Below, one piece after another: positions 3,774 to 55,028 of a stretch of 64,000 nucleotides of DNA; the first letter of the stretch is position 1, and every line of letters starts with the position of its first letter. The stretch comes from Hydra vulgaris. Its lineage: Eukaryota > Cnidaria > Hydrozoa > Anthoathecata > Hydridae. The DNA is taken from the NCBI RefSeq assembly GCF_038396675.1, contig NC_088921.1, forward strand, positions 68,026,001-68,090,000, in the 5' to 3' direction. Below the pieces are notes generated by a model. The model ran no database searches. It saw nothing but the letters and a program-made list of their open reading frames with translations, and was not told the DNA's origin. The translations under genes were made by a program, and so were the position numbers.

Positions 3774-4000
3774 ATTTCGTTTGTTAACGTTTCATGGGGT
3801 GAGCAACAAGGTTGTTGAAGAAGCCGAAGCGTACTTAGCAGTTGTTAATAATTTAACAATGAAAGCACAACTTTTTGAAGTAGTAGCCTCTACCAGGACC
3901 CGGCCAATTATAAAGTAGAATTATTAGCTTTTAAGTAATTGGAATGGACAATGTTTTGTTCAAACCGTTGGTAGATATGTTGAAGTTCTGAGATTTCAAT

Positions 4001-26239: not shown

Positions 26240-27190
26240 AATTTGATACCTCATGCCTGAATGCCACATGTCTAAAGTAGCAAGTTCTTTACAATTATGA
26301 ACAAGCAATACATTTGCAAAAATTGCAAGTAAAAAAAAAAAATTTTACAACTAATTTAAACTTACAGTGTGATATAGCATGACACAATTCTAAAATAGCA
26401 AATTATAAAAGCATATACAAACTTAAATAAACAAATTATAACAACCTATATATAAACTTTGCTGTAACTAGCCTAAATAAATACCCATAAAAAAATGCAA
26501 GTAAACATTTAACTGATTTATTTTACAACTGATGAAACTTACAGTGTAATTTTGCATGCCACGTGCCTAAAATAGTCAATTATAAAAGCATATAAACAAA
26601 TTTTATGCAAACTTAGCTGTAATTAGCCTAAATAAATATACCCATTAAAATAAAAATACCTAAATGCCACATGTCTAAAGCAGCAAGTTCTATACAAATA
26701 TAAACAAGCAATATATATTGCTTAACAATATATATAAACTTAGTTGCAACTAACATAAAAAAATTGCAAGTAAAAAATAAAAAAATAGTTTTACAACTAA
26801 TTTAAACTTACAGTGTGATATAGCATGACACGTGTCTAAAATAGCGAATCACAAAAGAATATACAAACTTAAATAATAAAATTAAAACAATCCATAATAA
26901 AACTTTGCTGTAACTAGCCTCAGTAAATAACCATGAAAAAAATGCAAGTAAACAGTTTACAACAGATTTATTTTATAACTGATGAAACTTACAGTGTGAT
27001 AATGCATACCACATGTCTAAAATTGCAAATTATTAAAAGCATATAAACTAGTTCTATGTAAACATAGCTGCAACTGACCTAAATAATGATACCTATCAAA
27101 AGAAATGTTAACATTTTTAATTTTACAACTGATTTAAATTTATACATAAGTTAGTATATGTCACGTCTAAAATAGAAAATTATACAAGAA
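26240..27190. repeat. Degenerate tandem array with a ~446-450 bp higher-order period
   Basis: CTTACAGTGT followed by TGATATAGCATGACACGTGT-like sequence and CTAAAATAGCAAAT recurs at 26361, 26538, 26807 and 26988, with a weaker copy near 27150. The alternating spacings (177, 269, 181) show two subunit types; like units repeat at 446 bp (26361 to 26807) and 450 bp (26538 to 26988). A second shared word, ATGCCACATGTCTAAAG, is at 26261 and 26664. It is non-coding. Confidence 0.8.
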
Positions 27191-27234
27191 TATATACAAG
27201 TCATATAGTCTATATTATAGAAATAATTGTTCAA

Positions 27235-27332
27235 CTAACTCTTTAGTTTATCACATAAAAAAAATTATAAATATATTCAATGGCATTGAATATATTTATA
27301 ATTTTTTTTTATGTGATAAACTAAAGAGTTAG
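27235..27332. repeat. Near-perfect 48-bp inverted repeat
   Basis: The arms run from CTAACTCTTTAGTTTATCAC inward to ATTCAATG, with a 1-nt loop and one extra T in the right arm. Confidence 0.9.
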
Positions 27333-27335
27333 TAG

Positions 27336-27358
27336 GTAAAGCATTGACAATGCTTTAC
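27336..27358. repeat. Short hairpin
   Basis: GTAAAGCATT and AATGCTTTAC around GAC, four bases beyond the preceding long hairpin. Confidence 0.8.
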
Positions 27359-27408
27359 ATAGAAAAATTTAAATAAGTTTAACAACTTTTGAAATTACAA
27401 ATAACAGA

Positions 27409-27495
27409 GTTTAATTTAAACTTTGTTTATCCATTTGCTTTCTGTAGTAAAATTTAGTAGAAAAAGCAAATGGATAAACACAATTTAAATTACGC
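27409..27495. repeat. Inverted repeat, about 30-bp arms
   Basis: TGTTTATCCATTTGCTTT (27424-27441) is exactly complementary to 27463-27480, and flanking TTTAATTTAAA-type sequence extends the pairing with mismatches. Confidence 0.85.
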
Positions 27496-27767
27496 TTTTT
27501 AAAAATAGTTTCGAAATGTGAAGCTATTTAAAAAATGGCAAACTAAACTTACTGCAAAAAGCCTTTTATCTACGACTTAAATGTGGTTTAAGAAAAACGC
27601 ATTTTAAAACTTTATCATTTATAAATAAAGAACTATAATATATTGACCAATCTAAATCAAACAAACAAGATTTAAAAATATAATTTACAGAGGAAGCACT
27701 TGATAATTACTTATGGAAACCCTTTTTAATAAAATTTCAGTTGTTTTTCATCGGATTTGAATATTTA

Positions 27768-35474: not shown

Positions 35475-35979
35475 AATATTAAAAAAAAATCAAAAATTAA
35501 TGACAATTGGAATTTCATAAGCATCTTAATTAGCAGGGTAATATAAGTTATTTTTTTACAGTTAGGAAATAAATAACATAAAGAATTTAGTCTTACTTAA
35601 AGACTTTGCACAATATATATATAATTATTTAAAGGCACAATATATATAGTTATACATATAGTTATATATATATAGTTATACATATAGATTTATAGTTAGT
35701 TAACTACTAGTACTGTGTATGAGAGCTAGTCTTAAGTTATTTTAGCCCTTTAATGCACGATATTTATATAATAGTTGATAATGCACGATATAATAGTTGA
35801 CTATTTTATCGTTAAAAGAACATAAAATGGAATCCAATTATCGGAAAAATAAAATTTTCCTTTTTATTTTCAAATTTTAAAATTACCATAGTAATAGAAA
35901 CTACTTACGAGTCGGTATTAAGTAATTCAAAGTCAACTGTTTCTTTTGTAACTAAACCAATAAACTAGGAGCCGTTAAA
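35475..35979. other. AT-rich spacer
   Basis: Contains a short imperfect (AT) patch at 35608-35700 and no supported gene. It would hold any upstream exon and the right terminus of the preceding pseudogene's element; neither could be identified. Confidence 0.4.
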
Positions 35980-36172
35980 TACAGGAATGGCTCCCTATTT
36001 TGATTGGATGAAAAAATTTTGTTTCACAAAGTCCGAAAAACATTTTTTCTCGTTTACCGGATATCGTGACTTGTATATGTTATATATGGAACATGTATAT
36101 GAAATATTATGAATGTATTCTTTAGATCGGAGCAAATATTTTGACCAATCAAATTAGGGAGCCATTCCTGTA
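35980..36172. mobile_element. 189-bp Tc1/mariner-type MITE
   Basis: Element 35982-36170 has inverted ends CAGGAATGGCTCCCTATTTT and, reverse-complemented, CAGGAATGGCTCCCTAATTT, continuing GATTGG. TA flanks it at 35980-35981 and 36171-36172. Non-coding. A truncated, inverted copy of its left half lies at 53040-53132. Confidence 0.85.
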
Positions 36173-36510
36173 AAAGTTTTAGGTTTTATTTACCTAAACT
36201 TTATTTACCGCTATTGTTTTTAATTTGTTTATAGTATTATAGTTTACTAACTTTGTTAATTTGTTTTTATGTTATTCTTAAGTAAAACATATACCGAGAG
36301 TGTTAAGTAAAACATGTACAGAGAGTAAAACATAAAATTATATTATTTTTTGTTATACATTCAATGTGTAAATAAAAATTTTATTTATTTTTATTTACTA
36401 ATTTTTATTTTATTAATTTTATAAATAATTAAATAATAAAAAATTTTATAAATGTATTTTATTAAAATACAGTGTTTTTTATTACCACATTGATTGTATA
36501 ACAATATGTT
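36173..36510. other. AT-rich spacer
   Basis: No gene; ATTTTATTTATTTTTATTTA-type low-complexity sequence. Confidence 0.4.
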
Positions 36511-36740
36511 TTGTTATTGTAAATGTATTATAATACACTTACAATAGTTACCCTGTGTGTTACACACAGGTTTGTAATAGGTAAATGTAATAGGTAAGTG
36601 TATTATAATGCACTTACCTATTACATTTACCTGTTACATTATTGCATTTAATAATTAACCTGTGTGTAACACTCAGATTAATTATTATAAATGTATTATT
36701 ATACATTTACAATAAGTAACATGTATTATTATACATTTAC
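36511..36740. repeat. Cluster of interleaved inverted and direct repeats
   Basis: A 33-bp-arm hairpin at 36574-36637 (TAGGTAAATGTAATAGGTAA and complement, two mismatches) sits beside a 9-bp hairpin at 36552-36570 (CCTGTGTGT). ATGTATTATTATACATTTACA-type words repeat at 36690 and 36722. The segment could fold into a branched structure. Confidence 0.8.
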
Positions 36741-37929
36741 AATAACAAAGCAACACAATTTTTTACACGCTACTACTAAGGCAATACTTTTACATTCTAA
36801 GCTATGGCAATAATTTCAATCAGAGGTTTGTTGGTTCAAAATAAAATTAAAAGTTAAATTGATATGCTTCATAAAATTATATTGAACTAATGATTCTCTA
36901 TTAAATTGTTTTATTAACTAATAAAGTTAAATACATGTAGGTCAAAAGTTAAAATTAAATTAAGTTTTTAAATGATGTAGTTTTCTATAACTAAATTTTA
37001 TCTTACTATTAGGATGTCAACAAATATTATCTTACTGCCAAGATCTTTCTTTAAAATATATGTCTTTAAAAAACATTGAGCGATCTAACTGTAAAATACA
37101 CTATGTAAGCTAGTGTATTCTAAAATTTGACTCTATTTGGATTTTTCAATGACTAGATTTGTTCAATGTTGGAGTAAATTTCTGGCAAATTTTCTGATAC
37201 CACAACAACAATATATCTCTTAACTAGTGTCTTTACCAGTCCTTTGAGGTGGTAAGCTGCTATCTACTAAAATGATAATTTTAGTTTATTTTCAAATTTG
37301 TTAGCTTCATAAAATATTATTGTTCAACTAATGACAACTAGTGACATTTAAGTTAAGAGTTCTATAGAGTTTTCTATAGCTCAACTCTAAGTTATTCCAA
37401 TAATGTGTCTACACTATACAATTTTTGCTTGAATTCAGTTTTCATTTATTCTGATCTGTCTTACCACAATTATTTGTTCCCCTACAATTTTTTTGCTGTT
37501 ATTCCTTTGCCTCAGCTACTAGAATTTCAAGATCTTTGTTTTCTTTTATTGTCAAATTATGAAGCTCTTTGATTGATTTATATCTTAGCATCTACAAATT
37601 TACTCAGATTCTTTATTACAAAGTTTTTTTGACAATAATTTATTAGTTTTACCAACAATGGTCTTGAACAATGTTATACAATATTGTCTTTTTTACCAAG
37701 CCGGATCACTTTAATTATATTTTTCTTAACAATATGTGAAGTAGTTATAGTAAATATTTGAATACAAAATTACTCATCTTTTTGGTATGATTTATCTAAT
37801 GAGGTAATGTTACTTTCTGATACTCTAAATAGTATTATGTTGTTTGGCCTTCAACTTTGTTTTGTAATCTCCTAATTTATGAGTTTACCTGCACCAGAAA
37901 TCTTTTACAAGACCAATGTGTCTGGTTAA
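36741..37929. other. AT-rich region, no supported gene
   Basis: T-rich on the plus strand with no recognisable motif. It could be intron or intergenic DNA. Confidence 0.4.
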
Positions 37930-37934
37930 AAAAT

Positions 37935-38002
37935 GAAAAAGGAGAGGGTCTTAAAAAGCTCTGGGTGGGTGGGAAAATTTTCTGAAAATTAATAAATGCT
38001 CC
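37935..38002. repeat. Dispersed direct repeat, copy 1
   Basis: Contains AAGCTCTGGGTGGGTGGGAA and shares about 65 bp with the copy at 38800-38870. Confidence 0.7.
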
Positions 38003-38799
38003 TTGTGTATAAAGCAGTTGAAATACATTTTTTTATGAACTCATTGCTCACAAAATGTAACCTTCCTACACACTCCACAAGCCCATTTCCCAGATATTTT
38101 TGCTTGGTCATTCTAAACTGGATGACTAATGTCTTTATCATGTTAATCCTTAGCTCTTTTGTTTCAATTCCATCTTTTCAACACTGAAACTTTTCAACAC
38201 TATATATTAATTCTCCTTCAACTACATAAATTAGTTTTTATCCTAAAATAAGTCTAAACTCTTTACAAATAGATTACAAGACGGTTATAAAAACCTAGGG
38301 TGTATCACTGAACAATGCTGCACACCAACCTTTACTCTCAAACTAACACTCTCTTTCTTTTGTTTTCATTTATGTTGTGATATTTTCATACGTAGTCATG
38401 AGAACTTTTTTAACATCTGAATATCATTAAACCCATCGCACAAGCTCTCATGGCACTTTTTCAACGTTAGCAAGCAATAGGAGACTCTGAGCTCTATTAA
38501 TAGCTCTGATTTTACTTCACTAAATTAAATTACCTTTGTATACAGCTTTTACTTTTTTTCGAATGAGGAAACCTACTTAAATAATATAATTGTTGTTACT
38601 TTATCAACTTTATCTTAAACACACTTTTTTTTATGAAAAAAACTTATAAAAAACACCAATAACACAATAGAGTGAACTAATTGAAACTTAAAAGCTGTCA
38701 TATTATTGATTGTGATCATGTTAAACAATATGCTAATTAGGTCTGTTGTTATTTTTATACTAAATAAAAATTCTTTCTTTATCTATGCGTGGGAATTTT
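38003..38799. other. AT-rich spacer between the two direct repeats
   Basis: No supported gene. A 63-codon plus-strand open stretch at 37996-38187 has no recognisable motif. Confidence 0.4.
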
Positions 38800-38870
38800 A
38801 GAGGGAGGGGGTGTCTTATTAAGCTCAAGGTGGGTGGGAAAATTTCCCAAAAGTTAACAAACGTCCCCCC
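38800..38870. repeat. Dispersed direct repeat, copy 2
   Basis: Contains AAGCTCAAGGTGGGTGGGAA and a following AACAAACGTCCCCCC. It is the same repeat as 37935-38002, in the same orientation. Confidence 0.7.
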
Positions 38871-39882
38871 TTTTTTTATCTAGGACTCTAGAGTATTTAT
38901 TACTATAGAGCAAACATCTATTTTCATTTCTTTTTTTTTTTATAGACTTGTGTGTTTGTGTTAAGTAAGTAAGTATAAAATTTTACAAAGGTGTTGCCAA
39001 TTTTTATGTATTCTTTATATGTTTATCTTTTAGAAGGCTACAAAGTAAAATTCAAAAGTAAATGATAATTAAATCTATATAATTCACCCCAAACAGTTAT
39101 ACATGAAGTCTAAGATGCAGATGGTGAAGATTTGCTGCACGTCACATTAATCAGAGTAATGTTTGTGATTACATCAAACACCTTATTAGAGTCATGATTT
39201 AGTAAATCTTGATGAAAAAAACTGTTTGGTAAAAAAGTCTTTTACCAAAAAAAAATCTCTGTTAAATTTAGAATTATTCAACTGTCTAAAAGATTACTTC
39301 TATAAAAAAAGTGTAGTGCATACATCTCGATGTGTTCTTTTTCATTAATTCTTTGTAAATAAAAAGTTAATTTGTCAATGCAATATATATCAAATTTAGC
39401 CTATTTCAAAAAAGTGTGATTTTTTTAATCAAATGTAACACTAAGTAATCTAATGCTGAAAGTCGATAAAGTGCGCTTTGCCCATGCGCTTTGAAGTTTA
39501 GAGTTGCTAAAATAAGAAAATTTGTTTTGTCATATATTATACTGCAGAAAAACACTAAAATTAAGGTAAATTGAAAATATTAATTGCTCTGGTTACCAGC
39601 GAAGTCAGAAGCGATTGCCATAAAAACAATGTCAAAAATTGCATGCTGTGTGCATGCAAGTGTTTGTTACCTAAATGAATTCATTTTTTCTGCAATTTAT
39701 TTTTATGTTAAAATGCTAACGAAAATTAAATTCTTGTTGCTATTTTAATATTCACGAATTGTAAGAAGGAAAAAATTAAAAGCGCATTTTCAACTTCCAT
39801 CAACTAGAAAAAAAGTTGATATCAAAATTTTTAACCTTGATTATAGCCAGTTATGAATATTTTTTTTTTTTCAATGAAATGA
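38871..39882. other. AT-rich region, no supported gene
   Basis: Nothing recognisable. TGCATGCTGTGTGCATGCA near 39642 is a short imperfect palindrome. Confidence 0.4.
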
Positions 39883-40066
39883 TTAGGGGTCGTCCACAAA
39901 TTACTTTACGCTATAAGGGGCAGGGGGTTTGGTGATTTTGTGATGACTCGTACAAAACTTGCTTCTAAAGTGTTACGATTTTGAGACATAGGTGGGGGGG
40001 GGGGAGGGGGAAGGAGGGTTAAAAACGGTCAAAAATTGTGTGACGTATTTTATGGACGACCCCTTA
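39883..40066. mobile_element. 178-bp PIF/Harbinger-type MITE
   Basis: Element 39886-40063 has inverted ends GGGGTCGTCCACAAATTACT and, reverse-complemented, GGGGTCGTCCATAAAATACG. The 3-bp direct repeat TTA flanks it (39883-39885 and 40064-40066), fitting the TWA target preference and G-rich termini of PIF/Harbinger elements. A G-run occupies 39994-40016. Non-coding. Confidence 0.8.
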
Positions 40067-40698
40067 TCAAAAAACTACATTAGACTTTATATTTATTAGT
40101 TAACCGAAAAATTAAATTGACATTTAGTTTTGTAATTATTTGCATTATTCCAAGAAAAGTTTATTTTTCAAGTTTAAAAAAATAAAAATCATAAATAATG
40201 TAATAAAATTATTATTAGTGAATTTTTCAACTAAAGATATTAACTGTTCTAAATACTCAACAAAAAAAATCAGCTATCCTGATTTCAACAATGCTTTGGA
40301 TTGCATAACTTCTAAAAGTTGTGTGAAAAATGATAAAAAAAGAAAATTTGTGTACAACAAATTTTATTTTTTTATTTTTAAAAACACAGTTACAAAATAA
40401 AGTTAAAATTAGCTCATCAGTTTTTTAAATTTCCATATGAAAAACCATCTGAATGCAGAAACGAACAATGCATGCGACATCGTGATTTACATGCTCGCAA
40501 ATGTTCTAGACATGCCATTTTGAAAAACTTTTTCGACCGTGCAAAGAGTACCTTGGATATGATATACCATAGGAATTTTTTTATGCTGAAGATTTGCAAC
40601 CCGCTTTTTTTTAGCAAAAGCATTAAAAATTTTAAAAGCAGTAAGCTTAACCGCTTCGCATCTATCTCGTGCGCAATAAAACCAATTGGTTATTACCG
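40067..40698. other. Region left of the truncated MULE gene, unresolved
   Basis: Would be expected to hold the rest of the MULE catalytic domain on the minus strand, but I find no matching motif. The gene appears truncated just inside 40720. Open stretches on both strands (40140-40400 and 40417-40702) are not recognisable. Confidence 0.4.
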
Positions 40699-41309
40699 TT
40701 AGTAAATCAGCAGTATAATGAGAAAATCATATGCATTTGTGCCATGCGTAGAATCAATACAAACACCATTTTTTCCAAACGGTTGCAGCATTTTTTTTTG
40801 ATGTTCTGTTTGCATTATAATTATAAAGTCTGATTCTTTAAATGTATAACATGTATCTAACTCACCCTGTAGTTTATAATATAAAACAGGACTATTTCCC
40901 TTCATTTGCCATTCTTTTAGCCAAATTGCAACACTGTCTTAACCATTGGCATGAAGTTGTATAGAAATAATGTTGAATGCTTTCTCTAGGTTTTTGATAT
41001 CTTGACGCTGGGTTAAATGTAACCTGGATTGAACACAACTTGTTTCATCTCTAATATCATCTAGGATTCTATTTTTGGTTACACCCATTTTAAGTTTGCT
41101 AGCAATTTCTTGCCTTTGAACACTTGATTGAGAAATATGTTGAATTTCATTTTTATGTCCATAGTGTGAATAACAAGCATTAACAATCTATCTACGGTTT
41201 GGGTAACTTAAAGTGTGGACGTGCAATTTTTAACAATTTTTCGATTTCCTATTAAGTAGATATTTGAGATCATACCCAGTAGGCACAGCGACGTGACAAA
41301 ATCGTGAAT

Positions 41310-41510
41310 TTCACGTCATTTTGGCACGTGACATTTAGGTGACTTTTTGTTCCCCATGAAATGACCAATTCACGTGATTTATGGACGTGTTTTTCACGTT
41401 ACTTTTGGCACGTGATATTTAGGTAACTTTTTGGTCCCCATGAACTGTCTAAAAGACGTGCTTTTTACGTTAATTTTGGCACGTAATATTTAAGTAATAA
41501 TTATGCTTTA
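41310..41510. repeat. Subterminal tandem repeats of the CCCAG element
   Basis: Three decreasingly similar units of about 70-75 bp, each with TTTTGGCACGTGATATTTAG-like sequence followed by GTAACTTTTTGGTCCCCATG. ACGTG words may be transposase-binding sites. Confidence 0.75.
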
Positions 41511-41736
41511 TAAAAACGAAGTGTTTGGATTCGTGTAAAGAAAAAAACTCATCGTCGAGGAAATATTTAATACGTATTAAATTACATGGTTTTATTAGTC
41601 AGTATATTAGTTCTTGATATAAACATTTTGAATTTGTAATAAAAGCAACACTTTTGTTAAAATATCCTCCTTATATCCAATAAGTAATAAGTACAAAGTC
41701 ATAGATCTGCAACTTACGAAGAGCACACTTCGATCC

Positions 41737-41876
41737 ACAAAGAGCGCACTTCAAACTTAATCTAACGAACCAGTCGATATATTCTCCCATAAAAGCACGC
41801 TTCAAACATAATCTAACGAATCAGTCGATATTTTCTCCTATAAGAGTACGCATCAAACTTTATCTAATGAATCAGA
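41737..41876. repeat. Tandem repeat of about 55 bp, 2.5 units
   Basis: Units share CTTCAAACTTAATCTAACGA and CAGTCGATATTTTCTCC. The last partial unit is where similarity to the second copy at 43890 begins. Confidence 0.75.
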
Positions 41877-42030
41877 TTTAGCTGAAAGAAACGAATAAAA
41901 TCTTAAATAATAATATGGTTATTTAATAACTATCTTAAATCACAAACTTTTAAAACAAATCTTACTTGGTAAGTTGCCAACCATTTTGGCAACAAGATTT
42001 TCTAGTTGTTTTCTTTTATCTAAATCATTA
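41840..42030. repeat. Internal direct duplication of the CCCAG element, copy 1
   Basis: Shares CGCATCAAACTTTATCTAAT and TTTTGGCAACAAGATTTTCT with copy 2 at 43890-44125, same orientation. Confidence 0.8.
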
Positions 42031-43739
42031 AATAATTTTAAGAAAACAATACTACATACAATGTAGAAAAATAAAAAAAGTCATTTGCCTTCTAATTTTA
42101 TACTCTTATTGCTAAAAAATAAGGATTTAATAAAAAAAGACATAACAAAAAAGTCGACAGATAAATAAAAAAAAGAAGTATAAAATATAAAAATACAAGT
42201 CTAAAAAAATATTGTTTATCTAATATATCTATATCTAATATCTGTCTATAGATAAATATATATATATATATAAAGTTAATAACTGAAGGGCGTGATTAGA
42301 AAAACACCTTATGTGATAACATCTGATTAAATAATTTGTTTTCTTTGTTTTCCATCTTCTTATATTTGCACTTGATTCTGCATTAACTTGTTCATACATT
42401 AACTCACTAGATGCAAAGGTTACAGCCCACGAAGTTGCTTTAAATGAGTAATCTACAAAGTTTTGAACATTAAATGTAATTTTAGAATGCACATAGAAAA
42501 TTATAACAATTTAAAAAAATGTAATAGTTACCACATAACCTCACAACATTATAGTGGGGATTTTATATCATGATTTTCCTACCCATGGTGAGATTTTCAC
42601 CTTGAGGCTCCTTTTGCTGTGGAAACATTCACCACGGCTAAGGTGCCTCATCTACCCCTTATAATTATATATAATATATTAAGTATAAAACTAAAAGTAT
42701 GTATAATAAAGTATTGTCAAATTAGGTCACCAATATATACCGAGTACTAAAAATTCAACTCAGAACCAAGTTACATTCTCCAACAAGATATGAACTAAAT
42801 TAAATTCTTGCTACAGGGTGCGATCACAAAAGAAGACGAAAAGAGGGAAAAGTGAATTTTCTCAAACTTTAAAAGTTAAAAGGTTATTGTGTCTTACTAC
42901 AGAATGATATACCTAGGCAATAACATAACAATACCATTGGATCTTCCTAGTCAATAATATTTTATACAGAACTTATCATTTATCATGTAGTTTAATAAAT
43001 TTAATAATATAAAAGCTATAATAACTTATTTATTATTAAATTAATTACATCGACAAATTTGACAGTCTAAAATATTATATAATAGGGTAGAAAAAAAAGT
43101 ATACCTTGTATTAGGGTTTGATCTTTTGCATGTTGCAATATGAGAATTATCTGCCATAACGTTACACGATTTTGAACTAAGCTTTTTAATATATTTATTA
43201 AACCTAAATTGACAAAAAATTGATATAAAATAATATAATATGTTTAGATAAAATATTATATATGTGACATTTTATTTTTGTCAAAAATGCATTGCGATGT
43301 TATAAGATATCTTATACCCTGATATATCTTATACCCTGAAATATCTTATACCCTGATACTTTTTTTATTATTATAAAACTACAATGCAAAATAATTATAT
43401 TATTATAAAAGTATAATAAAAAGTAATTACAATAATGAATATATAAACTATATATTTCATATAATCATTATATTTAAAAAATTCGGAAAATTGTTTGCGG
43501 AAAATATCCTGAAAAAATTCAGAATATTTTCCCCCTAATTTTTCCCTTAATTTTGCATTCAGCCAAGTTGACAATAATATATACTTTAACTTGCATGTAT
43601 GGAAAACTTTTCGGATATTTGGAAAAAGATAAATTTCAGAAAAATATCCGGTATTCCGGGAATATCCCAAAAAAAATAATTCCTGAAACTATATTATAAA
43701 AAAATAGTAAATAAAATAAAGAATATCTTTCCAAGTTTC
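42031..43739. other. Interior of the shorter CCCAG element, no gene supported
   Basis: Minus-strand open stretches at 42235-42492 and 43395-43670 have no motif I recognise. A 17-bp tandem repeat (ATATCTTATACCCTG core, three units) lies at 43306-43356. The segment 43050-43140 (TCTAAAATATTATATAATAG...) is similar to 49965-50040 near the right end of the larger copy. Confidence 0.5.
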
Positions 43740-43887
43740 TAATTATAGGTTTTTATTGAGAATAAAAAAAGTTCCAAAATACACAATATTTTGGCAACGT
43801 AACTTTCATGCTTCAATCAAGTAAAATTGTAACCTGGACGAGGTCACCTAAAATATACATGATTGAAACGTGAAGAAGGAAACTGGG
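43740..43887. repeat. Internal right-end copy of the CCCAG element
   Basis: Matches 50335-50477: GGTTTTTATTGAGAATAAAA, TATTTTGGCAACGTAACTTT, GTAACCTGGACGAGGTCACC and a final ACTGGG. About 13 bases next to the terminus are missing compared with the right end at 50477. Confidence 0.8.
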
Positions 43888-43889
43888 TA

Positions 43890-44125
43890 AGCATGCATCA
43901 AACTTTATCTAATGAATAAGTCGATATTTTTACCAATAATAGCTAGCGACACCAAATTTAGCTAAAAAGAAACAAATAAAAACTTAAATAATAATATGAT
44001 TATTAAATAATTATCTTAAATCACATATTTTTAACACAAGTCTTACATGGTGAGTCGCCAACTGTTTTGGCAACAAGATTTTCTGGTGTTGCTATTTCTT
44101 TGATCTAAATCATGAAACAATTTTT
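43890..44125. repeat. Internal direct duplication of the CCCAG element, copy 2
   Basis: Starts GCATGCATCAAACTTTATCT directly after the internal right end; see copy 1 at 41840. Confidence 0.8.
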
Positions 44126-45807
44126 AAAAAAAGCAATGCTATATTTGAGAGAAACTTGCTTTACATATTGGAAGGTTGTCAACATTGAAAGATAAGTATA
44201 ATGCAGTTTCAAATACAATAGCGTCATAATCATCTTTTTGTGGGGGAAACATTGAACAAATCCGCATTAATAACCTGTTTTATATTGTACATTAGGGGTA
44301 TGACTAAAAAATTTTTTTAAGAATTTTTAATTCCCCCTGTCACCATGAGTGGAGAAGTTATATTTATAAACAGAAAATATAAGTTTTTAATGTTAATTTT
44401 TGAAAAAGATTACCCCCAAGCTGAAAATAATTTTTCCTATCTTTTTAATGTTATCCTAATAAGTTATAAATATTGCTAAAAATGGTCTTGCTTCAGACAA
44501 GAATAAGAAAGTTTGGGAATCAAATTTAGCGAGATTTGAAAAAGCTAAGACTTCAAGAATATGTGCTATTGTTAAAAGTATTAGTGAAATGAATAAAATG
44601 TCTTCAGAACAGCATATTATTTTTAAAAGTTTTTTAAATATTATATTTAAAAGTTTCTCATCAAATGTTAAAAGCAGAAATGAGAGAGTTGGCTAAAGAA
44701 ATTGAACTAATATGGAGAAAGCTGAATATTCCAATTTTACAAGGTAAATCACCATCAGAAAGAAAAATAGAAAATGTATTGAAAACACTTGACAAAAATA
44801 GTCGAAAACCTGGAACTCAAAATTTTACCCGATTGTTTAACAAAACTGATGAGAAAGGTGAGTGGTTGTGTCAGGAAGATAAAGAGTTTTATGGTCTGCA
44901 AATGTCAATAAATGGAATAGTTGGATATTGTGCCACGATTGAAGATACTGAAGGTATTCATCCAAGAAAACTGGTGTTGATAAAGAAACAAATGTTCAAA
45001 AAACAAATCAGCCAAGACTGAGATTTCAATGAACCAGCTAGTGAAGGAGGTTATTCAGTAACTGAAGAGCAGTGTTCCAGCAGTGATACCGAAGCTAAAG
45101 ATGTCGAAAGTTTGTCATCATCATCTAAAAGATAAAAAACAAATTTGTCTGTAAATTTGGTGATTTCTGCAAAGATTAGTACCAAAAAAGCACATAAAGT
45201 CTGCAAAACTTTATCAAAAAATGGAATTTCTATTCCTACTCCAACTCATAGTGGTGTCTTCAAAGATGTCGGGAAAGAAGGAGAAAAGTTGAAAGCAAAT
45301 TATATAGAGAACTTAAAAAATGAAAAGCGGTCTTTACACTTTGATGGAAAACACATAGAGAAAATGGAACATCAAGTAGTTGTTTTTAAATAAAAGAAAG
45401 GGGTTAGACTTGCTGTTCTTTAGCTGATGAATGGAAAAGGTGAAACAATATTTAATGGGATAAAACTTGTGCTGGATGAATATGAGCTGTGGCTAGCCAT
45501 AAAAATGGTTGTATCTGATACAACATATGTAAATATCGGAACAAGAATTGGTGTAGTAACACTGTCACAGAAACATTTCAAAACCATTGGACTAGAAAAA
45601 CCTTCTTTTTTAGAATGCCACCACCATATTTTACATGTCATGAATAATCTTTTTGAAAAATCAACAACAAAACCAAATCTTCATTACCCATATGTGACAA
45701 GATTATGGCAAGAGTACAAGAACCCGAAGTTATTACTTTAGAATACTGGAGATCCTTTGACAAAAGTGAATTGGGTAGGCTGGCGAGATGACATGGACTT
45801 CCTGTAT

Positions 45808-45883
45808 CACTTAATACGCCCTTTGTCACTTAATAAGCCCTTTATCACTTAATAAGCCCTTTATCACTTAATAAGCCCTTTGT
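45808..45883 (+). repeat. Four 19-bp tandem units at the LINE 5' end
   Basis: Units at 45808, 45827, 45846 and 45865, consensus CACTTAATAAGCCCTTTAT, differing at one or two positions. They may be 5' UTR monomers or the product of 5'-end joining during insertion. Confidence 0.9.
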
Positions 45884-45908
45884 TACGGCTTAGGGTTTAT
45901 TAGTAGTA

Positions 45909-48893
45909 ATGAGGCAATTGCTTGGGCTATTAAACGGTGTTCTGAGTACTAACTATGCTTTGAGTCAAGTTCTTCAATCTAATTTAAAAATGAATAAAGT
46001 ACCAAAAACTATAAAACACAAAAAATCATCATCACCAAGTTCTCTAAACCTATCATTCACGAATATTCGTGGTCTTCGAAGTAACTTTTCTTCTGTTGAG
46101 TCTTATCTCTTGCAAAGTTCACCAGACCTACTTGCTCTTTGTGAGACTAATTTGAGTTCGGCTGTCTCATCTTGTGATCTTAGTGTTGATGGTTATCTTC
46201 CTCTGATTCGTAAAGACTCCAATAGCCACATGCTTGGCCTGGGCATTTACATTCGTAAGAATTCACCTGTTTGTCGTGAAACTAGGTTTGAATCCACAGA
46301 ATATTCTTTCATGTGCTTTCGTTTAGCACCACTTCACGCTATTGCCTTTCTCTTTGTTCTATATCGATCTCCTTCATCTCAAGACTGTACACTTTTTGAT
46401 GTTATTTCTGATCATATTGACCAAGCCCTCTCTCTTTATCCATCAGCTAATATAGTTGTTGTCGGTGACTTTAATGCTCACAACTCTGAATGGCTTGGCT
46501 CTAGTGTCAGTGACTCTGCAGGCATTAAAGCCCACAACTTTTGCCTTTCTCAATCCCTAACTCAAATAGTCAACTTTCCAACTCGCTTTCCTGACAACCC
46601 TAATCATTTACCTTCTCTACTCGACTTATGTCTTGTTTCTGATCCTAGTCAGTGCTCAGCTTCTCCACATTCACCCTTAGGTGCTTCTGATCACAGTTTG
46701 ATCTCTTTAAAACTAATATCTCATTCTTCTTCATCACCTGAATACCCCTACTATCGAACCTCTTATAACTACAGTAAAGCTGACTGGGATTCTTTCCGTG
46801 ATTTTCTTCGTGATGGCCCTTGGGTAGAAATCTTTCAACTTCCTGTCGACAAATGTGCTTCTTATATAACTTCGTGGATTCAGGCTGGCATGGAATCTTT
46901 TATTCCCTCTCGACGATTCCAGGTCAAGCCTCACTCTCCTCCATGGTTTTCCTCACACTGTGCTGCTGCGATTGCCAATCGAAACCGTTACTTCCATATT
47001 TATCAGCAAAACAATTCTCCAGAAAACAGACGTCTGTTTATTACTGCTAGAAACAACTGTAAAAAGGTTTTGTCTAACGCCAAAACCCGCTATTCTCAGG
47101 TCATGAAATCTCGTATCTCATCTCAAAAATTAGGCTCTCGTGTCTTCTGGAGAATCTTTAATAATATCAATAATAAGGGCAAATCTATAATTCCACCTCT
47201 CTTGTATGGTTCAGACTTTGTCACCTCACCTAAAGACAAAGCCGAACTGTTTGCTAAAAACTTTTCATCAATATCATCTCTTGATTCCACTAATTGCGTT
47301 CTACCTGATATTGCCAACAAACAGGTTGATTCATTGCTTGACATTCATATCACTTCAGCATCTGTATCTAAAGTGATTTCCTGTCTAGACTCTTCTACAG
47401 CTTGTGGCCCAGACAACATACCTGTTATTGTCTTGCAGAAGTGTTCTCCAGAGCTGTCGTCTATACTCTCAAAACTATTCAACAAGTGCTTATCAGAGTC
47501 TTGTTTTCCAGCCTGCTGGAAAGCCGCATCTGTTATCCCTATCTTCAAAAATTCTGGGGAGCGATCTGATTCGTCTAACTACCGTCCCATAAGTCTTCTT
47601 CCTATCATAAGCAAGGTTTTTGAATCTTTAATTAACAAACACTTAATTTCTCATCTTGAATCTAATAACTTACTTTCTGACCATCAATATGGATTTCGAT
47701 CTTCTCGTTCTACAGCTGATTTGCTAACAGTAATAACTGACAGGTTTTATCGTGCATTAGATGAAGGTGGAGAGGTTAAGGCCATTGCTCTTGACATTTC
47801 AAAAGCGTTTGATAAAGTTTGGCATGCTGGTCTTCTCCATAAGCTTTCTTCTTATGGTGTATCCGGCAACATCTTTAAGATCATTGAATCCTTCCTTTCC
47901 AATCGTAGCATAAAAGTTTTCCTCGATGGACAACACTCTTCTTCTTATTCTGTAACTTCAGGGGTTCCTCAAGGTTCTATCCTTGGCCCTATACTCTTTT
48001 TAATTTACATTAACGATCTTCCAGATATTCTCACATCTAAGGTGGCATTGTTTGCTGATGATACTACCATTTATTCTTGTCGTGATAAGAAACCAACACC
48101 CTCTGATTGCCTGGAGGGGGCATTTGAGCTTGAAAAGGATCTCACTTCTGCTACAGCATGGGGCTCACAGTGGCTGGTGAACTTTAATTCAGATAAAACT
48201 CAATTTTTTTCAGCCAATCGTTATCGCAATAATTTAGATCTTCCTATATTTATGAACGGTGATGTACTCGATGAGTCACCTACTCTTCATCTTCTAGGAT
48301 TAACTCTTACTTCCAATCTTTCTTGGAAACCATATATCAAATCGGTTGCAAAATTAGCATCTGCTAAGGTTGCATCTCTTTATCGAGCTCGCCACTTTCT
48401 TACTCTGGATTCTATTCTCTACCTCTATAAATCTCAAATCCGGCCTTGTATGGAATACTGTTGCCATATCTGGGGCGGATCTTCTAATGATGCCCTTTCT
48501 CTTTTAGACAAGGTGCAAAAACGCATTGTAAACATAGTTGGACCTGCTCTTGCAGCCAACCTTCAACCATTATCACATCGTCGTAATGTTGCTTCTCTTT
48601 CTCTTTTCTACAAATACTATAATGGGCACTGCTCGAAAGAGCTAGCGTCTCTTGTGCCATCTACTAAAATTCATTCTCGTGTTACTCGTCATTCAATTAA
48701 GTGTCATCCTTTTTCTGTGACTGTTCCTAAGTGCTCCAAAAACGCTTATTCGTCTAGTTTTTTTCCTCGAACATCAGCTCTTTGGAATTCGCTTCCTTCA
48801 TCTTGCTTTCCTGATTCATATAATTTGCAATCTTTTAAATCGTCCGTCAATCGTTATCTTGCTCTACAATCTTCATCTTTTCTCTTACAGTAA
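45909..48893 (+). CDS. LINE polyprotein: APE-type endonuclease and reverse transcriptase, intact
   Basis: The 994-residue ORF starts at ATG 45909 (MRQLLGLLNG) and ends TAA 48891-48893 without a break. An APE-type endonuclease occupies about residues 45-270: FTNIRGLRSN, LLALCETNLS (Glu79), VVVGDFNAHNSEW (Asp187), and LGASDHSLI (Asp261-His262). The reverse transcriptase follows at about 480-770: NYRPISLLPIISKVFE, IALDISKAFDKVWH (Asp629), SGVPQGSILGPILF, and FADDTTIYS (Asp717-Asp718), then the thumb and a C-terminal tail. Motifs place it in the CR1/jockey group of non-LTR elements; the exact clade needs a tree. The enzyme would nick target DNA and prime cDNA synthesis from the element's RNA in the nucleus. 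The intact frame and long poly(A) indicate a recent insertion. N-terminal residues 1-40 have no known domain. Confidence 0.9.
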   Translation: MRQLLGLLNGVLSTNYALSQVLQSNLKMNKVPKTIKHKKSSSPSSLNLSFTNIRGLRSNFSSVESYLLQSSPDLLALCETNLSSAVSSCDLSVDGYLPLIRKDSNSHMLGLGIYIRKNSPVCRETRFESTEYSFMCFRLAPLHAIAFLFVLYRSPSSQDCTLFDVISDHIDQALSLYPSANIVVVGDFNAHNSEWLGSSVSDSAGIKAHNFCLSQSLTQIVNFPTRFPDNPNHLPSLLDLCLVSDPSQCSASPHSPLGASDHSLISLKLISHSSSSPEYPYYRTSYNYSKADWDSFRDFLRDGPWVEIFQLPVDKCASYITSWIQAGMESFIPSRRFQVKPHSPPWFSSHCAAAIANRNRYFHIYQQNNSPENRRLFITARNNCKKVLSNAKTRYSQVMKSRISSQKLGSRVFWRIFNNINNKGKSIIPPLLYGSDFVTSPKDKAELFAKNFSSISSLDSTNCVLPDIANKQVDSLLDIHITSASVSKVISCLDSSTACGPDNIPVIVLQKCSPELSSILSKLFNKCLSESCFPACWKAASVIPIFKNSGERSDSSNYRPISLLPIISKVFESLINKHLISHLESNNLLSDHQYGFRSSRSTADLLTVITDRFYRALDEGGEVKAIALDISKAFDKVWHAGLLHKLSSYGVSGNIFKIIESFLSNRSIKVFLDGQHSSSYSVTSGVPQGSILGPILFLIYINDLPDILTSKVALFADDTTIYSCRDKKPTPSDCLEGAFELEKDLTSATAWGSQWLVNFNSDKTQFFSANRYRNNLDLPIFMNGDVLDESPTLHLLGLTLTSNLSWKPYIKSVAKLASAKVASLYRARHFLTLDSILYLYKSQIRPCMEYCCHIWGGSSNDALSLLDKVQKRIVNIVGPALAANLQPLSHRRNVASLSLFYKYYNGHCSKELASLVPSTKIHSRVTRHSIKCHPFSVTVPKCSKNAYSSSFFPRTSALWNSLPSSCFPDSYNLQSFKSSVNRYLALQSSSFLLQ

Positions 48894-48942
48894 CTTCCAA
48901 CTTTAATTAGTGGCTGCTTGCAGCCTTGTTGGAAGCGAAGAT

Positions 48943-48973
<31 letters not shown>

Positions 48974-49410
48974 TAGCTTGTTATAAAAAGTTCAAAAGCA
49001 CAGGTACCTTTCCAAAAGTGAATTTCAAATCACATCCTGCTATAAGCAATTCAAGATGGAACTTGAGAGTAATTTTTGTTCTACTTGCTTACATTCTAAT
49101 ACCAGACTATCAAGAATCGAAATCTGCTCAAGCAGCATGCAACTTCATCTGTGGTTCATGGGGTGATATATGGTTTGGTGATCACTACTTCAATCCTGCA
49201 GATTTTGTTCATCTATTAGAAGCATGCAATGAGCATCCAAAAGCATTAAAATTGTTGAAGACATTTTGGTCCACAGAGCCAACACCAATTCCAACACAAG
49301 GGTCAAATATATGTGCAGAACGTGCAGTAAAAGTGATGCAAGATTTAGTGCCTTTATGTCATAGCATAGAAAAACTTAACATTAAATACTTATTGTCAAA
49401 TACACTGTAA

Positions 49411-50334
49411 AATAATTTTAATTATTCATGTTTATTGGTTTTCTATAAAGTACTGGAACATGTGTTGCAAAATTACATTTCTTATATTCCATAAATCTTG
49501 TTTTTAAATGGGAGGGGTGGGGGGGGGGGGAAATACAATTCAAATATATATATTAATCATATAATATTTAAATAATTTCAAAAAATGAAATAAATAAGTA
49601 TTAACCTTTTTTAACAAGTAAAGCACAAGATCAAGATGTCATATATTACAAAAAGATAAAGTATATAATAATAATATATACATATATCAATAATAAATAA
49701 CATAACACATTTGTTTATTGATATTATCTTGGATAAATTCTTTAACCTTTTTGTTAAAAACCAAATAATACAAGAAAATCTATTTTTGGTTTTTATCTAA
49801 TCGACTCTTGAGCAATAATGTATGCAGAAGTTCTACAGACATTATTATTGCTCAAGAATCAAGAATAAGTTCTGCTAGAACTTATAATTTGTCCATGTAG
49901 CTTACTTAATTTGATATTAAATTTGTTTTAACATAACTTATTTTGTACTAAATTAAGTAAGCAAAATGGACAAATTCGCCAGTCTAAAATATTATATCAT
50001 AAAGTAGAAAAAAAGCATACCTTGTACTTGAGTTTAATCTTATTTGTGTGGCAAATAGGGACGCTTGGTACTAATTTATTTAACTTAATTCGATGTAATT
50101 TGGATATTAGATATTACAACTTAAAATATATTGGACTATTTAGTTCTGTTTTAAATGCATTGCGTTATAATTTATTATATAGACCAAATTTTTTTTTTTA
50201 ACTATGATTAAACTACAATAAAAATTAATTATATCATCATAACAGTAAAATAATTATAACTAATATAATGAATACAAAAACTATACTATAAAAAAATAAA
50301 TAATATAATAAAAAATATTATTTCATATTTCTTA
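49411..50334. other. AT-rich 3' part of the CCCAG element with hairpins
   Basis: No gene. Hairpins: CTTGAGCAATAATG pairs across 49807-49856 with a 3-base insertion; ATAAGTTCT/AGAACTTAT near 49865-49885; AATTTGTCCATGTAGCTTAC (49887-49913) pairs with 49950-49976 with two mismatches. A G-run (49508-49528) is also present. The segment 49965-50040 is similar to 43050-43140. Confidence 0.6.
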
Positions 50335-50477
50335 TCACAGGTTTTTATTAAGAATAAAAATAGTTTCGTTAGGCGCGATATTTTGGCACGTAACTTTCAC
50401 GTAAAATAGTAACCTGGACAAAGTCACCTAAAATAAACGTGATTGAAACGTGAGTAAAACGTTGCGTGCCTACTGGG
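50335..50477. repeat. Right terminal region of the CCCAG element
   Basis: Contains TTTTGGCACGTAACTTTCAC, AAAGTCACCTAAAATAAACG and the terminal GTGCCTACTGGG. It is the inverted counterpart of the left end at 41275. Confidence 0.85.
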
Positions 50478-51327
50478 TATAGATTAAAATAATATTTGTA
50501 TATCATATATATATAATACATAAAACTCTAAATATAGTAAAGATAATCATCATCTGTATAATTTTAAAAGATTTTTAAAACAAAGTGACCTATAGCACAC
50601 AAAAACTAAACATGTTTAAGAGTTTTTAGATATTTACATTAGGTGTTCTAATATTGTTTGAAATAAATAATGTATTTAACAAAAATTTAATAAGAAAGTG
50701 GTCACTGAATTAAGTCTTATAACAGTAATTAGATAAACAATGCTAATAAATTAAAATTTGTTGCAAATACAAATATTTTTCTTCTTCTAAATATCGTTAT
50801 TTACTTGATACATACCACTACTTTTAACTAGTCTTTTCTTCGCAATGCATTTATAAAATCCACTTCTGTAGCATTGATAGTATGATACTTTCCTACCATC
50901 TTTATCAATCTTTTCACCAGAAGGTAAAACATATTGTGTTGCATTATTACTTTCAATATCTGATTTCCACATTTCAAATTCTAAAAAATTATTTACAAAA
51001 ATCAAATAATTACTACAAGACAAAAAAGGAGAAAATGAATTTGAAAACAATTATCATTGTGTAACAACTTATATAAAAAAATTCATAACATCAACAGGAA
51101 CTGGACTAAAACATAGGCAATAAATATTTTTTAGAACCTATTCATGTTAGTAATTATGTTTGAAATTATTACAAATTCAAAATCATTTTCACAACACATA
51201 ATCACTAACATATTAAAAAAATAATAAAGCAAGAATACAAAAGTTTGTATGCAAAATAAATGGCACTTTTACTCTAAACTATATTTAAATAAAACATTAT
51301 TTACTTTTAAAAACATTAAAGCATTAC

Positions 51328-52864
51328 CTCGATAATTAGCAAACGATAATTTTTCTTTCAGAAAGGTATAAAAATGAACTGCAGATAAATGTTTTCTTAA
51401 ATCCTTAATTCGCCTACATTTAAATCCACATTGAAGACAAAAAGAATTTCCTGATTGAATATTTTCTTGTGCTTCATCAATTGATTTGTGTTTATTTTTC
51501 ATATGCTGCAGCATGTTTTTTTTTTGGGTGAAAGAGATAGTGCAAATTGCGCATTTTAAAGATAAAAAATTGGTATTTTTTACATTGGCCATTTTCTTTT
51601 TATTTATGTTGGATTCGAAAACATTTGTATATATGGCATCTTCATCAGAATCAGTATCACATACTTCAAAACTGGTGGAAACTTCACGCACAATAGTGGT
51701 AGGAACAACAAAATCAAGATTTATTTCTTTTGAGATAAACCATGACATTAAAACTAATCTTAAATATTTAGAATATTTAGTAGGGTCTTTTAGAAAATTG
51801 TAATTATTGTTCTCTATTTGACCATTATTTATCATACAGTTAAAGTAGTCATATTTTAAGCAAGAGATTGCACATACTATTATGGTAATAACTCCACAAA
51901 TATTTCCACATGTCTGCATGGGATAATTTTCTTTGCAAAAAGAACTGCATTTTTTAACTCCATTCATGTGTGTCTTTGGATCATGACAATAAGTGATATT
52001 AAAGCTTTCGCTTATGTGATACAATTTTCTGATTAATAATTTAACTTTAGTTAAAAAATCATCTGGAGCTGTCCATCCTAAAGAATCTCCATAGTAAAAA
52101 TTACCTTCAATACTATTATAAACTGCAAGTGTCCAGTGGCAACCTGCATTTAAATCTGTGCCAGAAAATGTTTTCTCATTGTTTCCTCCAATATTTATAA
52201 TAAAGATCAGCTTTTCAGGGACAACAGTTATTCTTGATACATAATGCTCAATATTTCCTAAAAAGTTAAAATAAATTACCTTTGAATGGCCTTGAATAGA
52301 GTTTAAAATGCTAGAAATTTGCAGCATATGATCTGATGAAAGCCATCTAGCACAACATAACTCAGCTAAAGTATTAGGGTTCATCACATATTCTGATATT
52401 TCTTTGTTAGCTGGCCTTCTAAAAAGCACTTCTTTGAATTTTTCTATTAAATTTTGAGAAGGAAAAATACTGATTGATTTTGGTACTAACTTGGGAGAAT
52501 TAAACCATGTTAACTCTTGATCAACTGCTAGCTTCATTTCTTGAACCCTATGAAGAGCTATTAGATGCTGAACACTTTCATACATGAACTTTCCTAGGTT
52601 GCATTCTATATAATGGATTCCACTCGCAATATTATTGCGCATAGATAGTTCAGTGGACCATTTCATTAACTGATGTTTAGGTGGTAAACTTTTAAGAGAA
52701 AATACATCATCAGTTATATCCACAGGAGACTGGCGTGTTTTAATAGAATAATCTTGAACAGATTTAATAAACTGTTTCTGTGACTCGCAAGCATTATGTC
52801 GATTATAATTGTTGATCGCAAGGTGATTAAGCTTTAACTTGTTTGAAGACAAGCTAGCAGATGC
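51328..52864 (-). CDS. Exon 2 of the MULE-type gene: Ulp1-like cysteine protease plus two C2H2 zinc fingers
   Basis: This is the undamaged 1537-bp exon of the gene above. The protein before the protease domain (residues about 1-200) has no domain I recognise. The catalytic set His, Asp, Gln, Cys occurs in the order and spacing of C48 (Ulp1/SENP) peptidases, which remove SUMO or ubiquitin-like modifiers; the six-residue Gln-to-Cys gap (QTCGNIC) is the usual one. The C2H2 fingers (CAICTISFTQKKNMLQHMKN and CLQCGFKCRRIKDLRKHL cores) suggest nucleic-acid binding. Ulp1-type domains are known in several MULE and other large transposons. If exon 2 is not spliced at 51328 it reads on to a stop at 51269, giving 532 residues. 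Substrate and activity are unknown. Confidence 0.75.
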
Positions 52865-52943
52865 CTAAACAAAAGTTATGTCTTTTAGAAGAAGAAAAAT
52901 TGCATTATCTTTAATGAAATAAAACTGTACTAAAACTCACCAT

Positions 52944-53039
52944 CGTTATTGCGTATTAGATACTAGAATCTAGTAGCGAGTTCTATCGCATTTATATTGT
53001 ACATATATTATATATATATATCCATACTAAGGCATAAAC
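52944..53039. other. 5' flank of the MULE-type gene
   Basis: AT-rich, containing a short (AT) run at 53005-53018. Would hold the promoter and 5' UTR; no defined promoter motif is recognisable. Confidence 0.35.
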
Positions 53040-53132
53040 TTTTTTTAAATACGGCAACGAGAAAAAATTGTTTTTCGGACTAAGGAAAACAATCTTTTTT
53101 CGTCCAATCAAAATAGGGAGCCATTCCTGTAT
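53040..53132. mobile_element. Truncated, inverted copy of the CAGGAATGG MITE
   Basis: The reverse complement starts CAGGAATGGCTCCCTATTTT and follows the left half of the 35982-36170 MITE (GATTGGACGAAAAAAG, TTAGTCCGAAAAAC) before diverging. The other terminus is absent. Confidence 0.75.
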
Positions 53133-53652
53133 TTAACGATTAGTAATAAACTTACTTGACGACATTTTGAAAATATCAAAATAAAAAGTCACGTGACTTG
53201 CGCTACAACATTGATTTGCAGATTTGGGCATTAGAACATTATAATACTAAAATGTTTTAAAAAAGTGAAATAGAATAAGATAAAACTAACAAAATACGTA
53301 AAATTGTAATTAGAACAAAGTCAAATTGAATAAATCTTGACGAAGCAGAGGAGGTAATAATTTATTGATAAGTGGAAATAATACATTATACTTTTTTAAA
53401 CAATAAAAATTGGTTTTTGCACAAAAAAAAATTTGTAGATAGAATAAGATAATACTGAGGGGACGATATGTTAAAAAAATAATAATAAAATAATCGAAAA
53501 TATTAAATGTAAAGAAAAAAAAATTGTGCGGTATTAAGCCACATTCTGATAAAACCGCCCACCTGAGAAAACATTGAACTTTTTAAATTTTTTACTTTTT
53601 TTTTTAATTGGTTTTTAACACAACTTATATTTAAGAAACTATATTAAATTTT
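53133..53652. other. AT-rich spacer with a dispersed repeat block
   Basis: 53436-53475 (ATAAGATAATACTGAGGGGA) is an inverted match to 32715-32757. TTCTGATAAAACCGC at about 53547 and an inverted TTCTGATAAAATCGC near 55232-55246 could be inverted ends around the pogo-type pseudogene, but pairing is short. Confidence 0.4.
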
Positions 53653-55028
53653 TTACATTTTTTGCAACAACAAAAATTCCAACGACATATTTCTTTGGTA
53701 AATATGTTTTTTTTGCACAACCGTTCCCGACACATCGAATTCTCGCATTGCAACATTTCTTATGTGTAATTGTACTCTACATTTTTTACTTTTTGCAACT
53801 TTTAATCGTTTGGCTGCCGGTACTTGTTTTTCATTATTGTTTTGCTGAGGTTGCTCAGCATTGTTATGCTCTGGTATTTGAGTACTTGGCATAGAGAGTC
53901 TACGTTTTGGGTTAAGTTTAGCAACTTTCACGGCTTTCTTGGTTGCTTTTTCTTGTTGTTTGAGGAATTCGATCACATTTTCTTCGGTAATACATTTTCC
54001 GCCAAGTGTAAAACATTTACCACTTTCGTACAGCTGCTTGAGAAACGGTGGAAAATATTGTTTATCTAAATTCTTACATTTTGAGTCTTTGTAATACTTT
54101 GTAAGAATTTCATTCCGTGCTTTTTTGACTTGACAATAAACACCTCTATCCAATGGTTGTAGAATATGTGAAGAATGGTCTGGTAGACAAATCAAGATTG
54201 TATTGTATTTTTTGCACAGCAATACCGCTTCCAAAGTTATGTGAGTTGTATGCTTATCTAATACTAAAATATGAATACCACAAATTTGCTCAGTTTTGGG
54301 TATAAATCATCGTGCTCCATCCAACCTGATTTTGAAATTGAATATTTGGTGCCAACTGGACCACCTCTTGCCCAGTCAAGAAGAAAGTTTCTTATGGCTT
54401 TGTATATCACAAATGGTGGTGCAAAATGCCCATCAGCGTTGCAGAAATTGTTTACAGTATAATGAATTTTTCATTGTTGTCAGTAAGTTTAAATGCACGT
54501 CTTGTCTCTTTTCGACACACTACACTTGATCCCCCGAAAAACCTGTTTCATCACAATTCCATATATGCGACCCAGAAAGTTATACGAGTTTGTTAGTATT
54601 GCTTGGTGACGCATTCAAAATAACGATCAATTTTTTCTGGCGTACAAGAAGCGGCTCTTTTAGATGCTAAGTTATCCGCTTTTCTTATTGAAATTTCTTT
54701 TGACCATCTTTTCATAAAGGCATAAGTCTTTATCAGGCTTGCCATTTTTGAATAAGTGCAATTGATCTTCGCGTTTAAGGTATTCACATACAATTTCTAG
54801 GATTTCATTTTGGGTTAAACGATAACCCCAATCATCAAGTAATTAGAATGCATGCACCATCAATCTTTCTGTTTATTTGAGAGTGTCGTTGTTGTACCTG
54901 AGCCATGGAAGCCTTTGTTGTTGTTATTTTTGCGATCTTTGAGTCATTGATGTTTTATTTTCTTTCATATCAGTTAATGCGGCTAGAATATCGTCGTCCT
55001 TGTTTGTTTTTGTTTTTTTAGTTGACAT
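53653..55028 (-). pseudogene. Pogo/Tigger (jerky-like) transposase pseudogene
   Basis: Minus strand, ATG at 55028 (MSTKKTKTNKDDDILAALTD), soon broken by a stop. Pieces in order: LLDDWGYRLTQNEILEIVCE (54840-54770), FKNGKPDKD then AFMKRWSKEISIRKADNLAS (a CENP-B-type DNA-binding domain, 54740-54640), ADGHFAPPFVIYKAIRNFLL and DWARGGPVGTKYSISKSGW (54440-54320). A frameshift near 54290 follows, then ICGIHILVLDKHTTHIT with the second catalytic Asp, and an open 193-codon tail (54234-53653) starting EAVLLCKKYNTILICLPDHS and continuing SHILQPLDRGVY. This order and LPDHSSHxLQPLD identify the pogo branch of Tc1/mariner. The basic tail (AAKRLKVAKSKKCRV) may be a nuclear localisation signal. Multiple stops and shifts upstream make the copy inactive. 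Confidence 0.85.

Follow-up and report, generated by a model that had tools for sequence, protein, structure and literature searches.

The locus analysed here raises two questions: whether a cysteine protease, zinc fingers and the transposase of a Mutator-like element (MULE) belong to a single animal transposon gene, and whether the protease persists as a product of its own where the transposase is broken. The window is a 64,000-nucleotide stretch of the Hydra vulgaris genome (contig NC_088921.1, positions 68,026,001 to 68,090,000, forward strand). We found that the feature it contains is very probably a 17.2-kb MULE DNA transposon insertion, in the form of a non-autonomous, nested and partly decayed copy. 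The initial annotation had bounded the feature at 40699, and the true element reaches much further, spanning 35967-53144 (17,178 bases, nested insertions counted). Its gene structure is real and ordinary in kind, that of a MULE family with a fused protease-like domain.

The limits of the element were set by its termini. The 5' terminal inverted repeat (outermost 89 bases, 53056-53144, minus strand) and the 3' terminal inverted repeat (35967-36054, plus strand) matched each other over 83 bases at 90% identity (35973-36054 versus 53138-53056), and the 8-bp target-site duplication AATAAACT was found beside the 5' end at 53145-53152 and, in identical form, beside the 3' end at 35959-35966. A 17-base end motif occurred three times in the window, with 0.05 occurrences expected. 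At the 5' end, copies were alike from ACTAATCG inward and mostly unlike outside; the common sequence of the eight near-identical copies (L001-L008) began at ACTAATCGTTAAATACAGG, and the flanks beyond it were unlike except in C4 and C8b, which had the same flank. The 3' limit at 35967 was set by the C11 copy. Perfect 8-bp duplications were present in four of the five copies tested, namely the window, C11 (GTTTTCAA), C8b (GAAATTAT) and C2, where the duplication is only a run of eight T; target-site duplications of MULEs measure about 8-11 bp. The stretch 35981-36171 was considered as a separate small element and rejected, since the C11 copy shows this stretch to be the element's own 3' end. Inside that end, at 36139-36172, lies an inverted extra copy of the element end that is also present in C11 and is possibly a small nested element. 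In L008, a compact copy, the 5' inverted repeat is doubled in tandem.

Within these limits four exons were recognised on the minus strand. Exon 1 (52941-52943) holds only the start codon, ATG followed by GTGAGT, as it does in a second family whose protein is about 76% identical. A 76-nt intron (donor GTGAGT, acceptor GTTTAG before 52864) separates it from exon 2 (51328-52864), an open exon of 1537 nt encoding a Ulp1-like cysteine protease domain and two C2H2 fingers. Intron 2 measures 347 nt, with the donor GTAATG after exon 2 and the acceptor TTTTAG before 50980, and leads to exon 3 (50816-50980, 165 nt), the first half of a WRKY/FLYWCH-like finger, whose match to Pfam WRKY was weak and fell under the cut-off (E 0.044). 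The exon 4 remnant (40727-41248) carries the second finger half and the start of a MULE transposase, with a sub-threshold match to the ZSWIM RNaseH-like model PF21056 (E 0.00036). Spliced in silico, exons 1-3 gave 568 codons with no stop, and a 531-codon frame would be open by chance with a probability of about 6e-20 at the local base composition. The in-phase junctions proposed earlier were thus borne out by the uninterrupted reading, and also by the 76% family, where the borders of all three introns recur in phase (ATG/GTGAGT and TTTAAG/GTATCT in L042 and L044, AAAG/GTAGTT in L042, and GTTTAG/AATTTG, AGTG/GTATGT and ATAG/GCACTC in L021; L021 and L042 are the same C1 copy). This recurrence favours cis-splicing. 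Hydra is reported to trans-splice transposon transcripts too (PMC12220107), so the exon 2 acceptor could also receive a leader.

The initial annotation had proposed a genome search for full-length copies and inverted ends. Matching pieces numbered at least 84 for the exon 2 protein, at least 41 for the transposase piece and at least 36 for exon 3; these are pieces rather than copies, and the window's own are included. Sequences of exons 2 and 3 and of the transposase occurred together in 18 of 38 loci, which represent 16 places because two pairs are the same place; L003, one of the 18, has a transposase part of only 27 residues. The 5' inverted repeat was located upstream of exon 1 in all eight copies L001-L008. 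Copies with the modules together were therefore recovered, as were the ends and the 8-bp duplications described above. The exon that follows exon 3 in compact copies encodes the other finger half and then the transposase, in frames of 658 codons (L012) and 615 codons (L021) that each include some intron codons at the start. Both exceeded the cut-offs for PF10551 MULE (28.4 bits in L012 and 28.1 in L021; cut-off 27.6) and for PF21056 ZSWIM1-3 RNaseH-like (40.2 and 43; cut-off 27.2), which agrees with the MULE domain that had been predicted; the window keeps the transposase start only. A zinc-binding domain, for instance WRKY-GCM1/FLYWCH or SWIM, is frequent in MULEs. A SWIM-like CxC...CxH motif and finger letters were seen by eye in L012, and neither the exon 3 protein nor the L012 and L021 transposases had a Pfam FLYWCH or SWIM match.

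The individual modules were located as follows. The two C2H2 fingers called earlier lie in exon 2, finger 1 at residues 438-459 (51488-51553, minus strand, Pfam matches below cut-off) and finger 2 at residues 476-497 (51374-51439, minus strand, recognised by its motif). A FLYWCH-like module and a transposase motif had been placed further along the same strand, and YYQCYRSGFYKC was indeed found in exon 3 and CIDSTHGTNAYDF in the transposase piece 41187-40727, which has one in-frame stop; the module itself needed revision, because exon 3 encodes the first half of the finger only. The finger is split, its remainder opening exon 4 at 41248, and the idea that the second half was missing was rejected, as this half starts exon 4 in compact copies. 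Because in other copies the modules adjoin one another in phase, their splice borders are conserved and the full transposase exceeds the Pfam MULE cut-off, the modules are read as one spliced gene. The claim that a protease and an animal MULE transposase share one transcript thus holds at the DNA level, as one gene whose joint transcript is predicted. In vivo the four exons would be spliced into one message, and the family product would be a single polypeptide of roughly 1,200 residues, a figure taken from exon lengths pooled across copies. Its predicted order is Ulp1-like protease, two C2H2 fingers, WRKY/FLYWCH-like finger, MULE transposase and SWIM-like finger.

The protease-like core extends approximately from W174 to residue 380 (51725-52345, minus strand). 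The His-Asp-Gln-Cys set reported earlier for one exon was located at H243, D260, Q317 and C323, all in exon 2, with the arrangement H243-x16-D260 (17 apart) and Q317-x5-C323-G (6 apart). We take the H-x16-D and Q-x5-C-G spacing to be the same as that of yeast Ulp1. The H-D...Q-C-G pattern was picked post hoc and was present in 40 of 200,000 shuffles, so that the geometry alone is suggestive and no proof. Each of the four residues was retained in 15 of 16 covering loci, eight of which are near-identical copies; the His is altered in L003, and the Asp, Gln and Cys are altered in L047, a decayed relative. Based on the catalytic spacing and this conservation, we call the domain Ulp1-like by its most likely function, not as a proven member of C48.

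Several results weigh against this reading of the locus, most of them concerning the protease. A Peptidase_C48 domain, for which a hidden Markov model search had been suggested, was not recovered: no PF02902 match was obtained in the window protein at E<=1, in its core at E<=10, or in any of ten family members at E<=1. No Ulp1/SENP chain was among the PDB matches listed for the protein, the core and the family profile, and what these sequence searches returned was C2H2 fingers and, by chance, a single chain named gp91. Two single-sequence structure predictions were too poor to use, with predicted local distance difference test (pLDDT) values of 37 and 42, and a fold search of the pLDDT 37 model gave no match at E<=0.001 and none above probability 0.12 among the best 50 of 183 rows. 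At the element's ends, the C4 copy (L048), the fifth of the copies tested, lacks a duplication and differs in its 3' boundary, and a search for the 3' end of C12, a compact copy, was unsuccessful. At the first splice donor, L007 and L008 are changed beyond GTGA. Of the other searches, NCBIfam gave no match for the three element proteins tested, two protein scans and two motif scans of viral contigs found no relatives, and one of the ten family members had a weak PH_ULP match (E 0.016). The lack of a C48 profile, PDB or fold match leaves a minor but real chance that the domain is another papain-like peptidase or a catalytically dead relative rather than a Ulp1-type SUMO protease. Against this stand the conservation of the four residues and a spacing equal to that of yeast Ulp1. 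A further argument for the Ulp1-like assignment is that Mutator elements with Ulp1 domains have been reported from Hydra (PMC2836005).

The fate of the protease in the window depends on the branch to which this copy belongs. As noted before, exons 1-3 are intact (568 open codons), unlike the transposase exon, which has stops and a frame shift and is truncated at about 40721. We considered whether this truncation was private to the window and rejected it: the same replacement of the transposase C-terminus is common to nine of 47 loci (L003, L009, L010, L018, L022, L023, L026, L027 and L031). Among the 30 transposase loci L009-L038, eight have the truncated tail, and C-terminal transposase sequence is present in the remaining 22; it was found neither in the window nor in any of the nine truncated-tail loci. 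In place of the remaining transposase, the window has retrotransposon-like sequence (40610-40726, minus strand) that is common to sister copies. Several truncated copies carry their own 8-bp duplications, so the branch evidently moved as a unit after losing the transposase C-terminus, and its mobilisation would thus have occurred in trans. What appeared to be the private decay of one copy turned out to be an inherited trait of a spreading non-autonomous branch. A repeat at 26236-27708 of the window recurs beside the 5' ends of the truncated copies L004 and L007, whose flank is the same.

Selection on exon 2 was then compared between families and within the branch. Between the window family and the 76% family, the ratio of nonsynonymous to synonymous substitution rates (dN/dS) was 0.22-0.28 (about 0.24) at a synonymous divergence (dS) of about 0.5, and the protein has therefore been constrained over the longer term. 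Within the branch, exon 2 was examined in the seven copies L001-L007 (the tail was seen in six, and L006 was assigned by the intron insert alone), and 40 nonsynonymous or stop changes and 17 synonymous changes were counted. With a transition bias estimated on 40 non-coding changes, a nonsynonymous share of 0.763 was expected, and the probability of 40 or fewer among 57 was 0.17; with equal mutation rates, P for a nonsynonymous shortage was 0.046. Pairwise dN/dS ranged from 0.24 to 2.21 and was below 1 in 17 of 21 pairs, the high values resting on very few changes. Variable sites made up 52 of 1537 positions in exon 2 versus 40 of 956 in neighbouring non-coding sequence (P 0.33). Stops were present in exon 2 of three of the seven copies, and the other four had no in-frame stop; in L003 (L003:1501-3093), which has the truncated tail, the protease exon is open and Arg replaces the catalytic His. 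The dN/dS comparison suggested by the initial annotation thus revealed constraint between families and no clear constraint within the truncated branch. Judged from these counts, a weak residual constraint on exon 2 may persist in the branch, either inherited from full-length ancestors or still acting.

These data bear on the proposal of a lasting protease made as a useful product of its own. In its stronger form, the truncated branch would keep a selected protease, a Ulp1-like protein made without transposase that aids its own or its relatives' mobilisation in the manner of an accessory gene. The stop-free exon 2 of four of seven branch copies, at a time when none of nine truncated-tail loci has C-terminal transposase, speaks for such a product, as do the spread of the branch after truncation, the preponderance of pairs with dN/dS below 1 and the P of 0.046 under equal rates. 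However, the shortage of nonsynonymous changes loses significance once the transition bias of non-coding sites is applied (P 0.17), exon 2 varies about as its non-coding surroundings do (P 0.33), three of seven copies have stops and one more, L003, has lost the catalytic His, and pairwise dN/dS reaches 2.2, albeit on very few changes. We consider a selected protease of this kind improbable, and the persistence of a useful separate product is not clearly supported. It is a shade less probable still that the branch, having shed its transposase domain, kept and spread a Ulp1-like protease with fingers as a portable accessory factor, for example one clearing SUMO marks at its own or its relatives' ends, with the transposase borrowed in trans. 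That exon 2 is an unrelated stand-alone gene beside which a MULE landed is scarcely credible: the roughly 9.6 kb between exon 3 and the transposase piece in the window would allow it, but the 5' inverted repeat upstream of exon 1 in all eight copies, the matching splice phases and the adjoining modules in 16 places oppose it, and the compact copies refute it unless they are assembly artefacts.

For the spliced MULE gene, cut-and-paste transposition is the likely mechanism. The fingers would bind the element ends, and the transposase would cut and join, leaving the 8-bp duplication. The protease part probably acts by taking a SUMO-like or ubiquitin-like tag off either the transposase or a host factor involved in repair or silencing; both this activity and its target are proposals. 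In the branch to which the window copy belongs, intron 3 took up a TA-flanked insert and the C-terminal part of the transposase was lost; mobilisation would have been in trans.

A protease-bearing animal MULE, whose novelty the initial annotation had implied, is already in print: PMC2836005 cites Ulp1 domains in MuDR/Mutator DNA transposons of hydra (Hydra magnipapillata, Repbase Reports 2008) and lancelet. The Hydra magnipapillata elements resemble the present one in superfamily, host genus and the presence of a Ulp1 domain, whereas the C2H2 pair, the split finger and the truncated branch are features of the present element that were not met in that paper's account of them. The present family, compared with these Repbase families by published description, may be one of them. 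For the C2H2 and split-finger architecture, no description was met in searches of one open-access library for animal Ulp1 MULEs, which does not prove that none exists. Ginger1 of Hydra is likewise an animal DNA transposon whose transposase gene carries a Ulp1 or OTU protease domain, many having introns, but its transposase is Gypsy-integrase-like and its protease C-terminal, whereas the present element has a MULE transposase and an N-terminal protease (PMC2836005). The invertebrate clades Spectre and Ghost are also animal MULEs, Ghost with cnidarian sequences and Spectre with a C2H2 finger, 8-bp duplications and ends of 74 bp (a table gives 76); their descriptions in PMC6446971, on which this comparison is based, include no protease, unlike the present element. 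An OTU domain is present in MuDR-6_HM, a cnidarian element listed in the same survey. The combination of MULE and Ulp1-like protease is shared by the plant MULEs with ULP1-like genes that PMC2836005 cites, which differ in their hosts. In Hydra, MULE-MuDR is reported to belong to the transposon classes that are expressed and putatively active, without ranking with those of highest expression (PMC12220107). Near-identical copies with versus without the transposase domain beside the same protease, in a laboratory animal, provide a natural comparison in which to test the role of Ulp1-like proteases for transposons.

The distance between exons 3 and 4 in the window is due to an insert in intron 3 (41275-50477) with inverted ends CCCAGTAGGCAC and a TA duplication. 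It is absent from compact copies, in which window position 41274 joins 50478 directly (13 loci, 12 places). Nested in the insert is a non-long-terminal-repeat retrotransposon frame (45894-48893, plus strand) encoding an endonuclease and a reverse transcriptase (RVT_1 E 6.5e-37, Exo_endo_phos_2 E 5e-14), to which the tail at 40610-40726 is 73% identical. The open pieces flanking this frame, 44463-45741 and 48949-49410 (plus strand), appeared by eye to be one protein split by insertion, and the pieces tested from them had no Pfam match above cut-off. A second retrotransposon copy of the same type, 75-88% identical in pieces, is located at 2263-3774. Immediately beyond the 5' end of the element, a minus-strand fragment (53653-54306) matched the DDE_1 endonuclease (E 2.6e-12) and is presumably a pogo/Tigger-type remnant. 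The G+C content of the window, in 2-kb steps, ranged from 22.5 to 39.5%.

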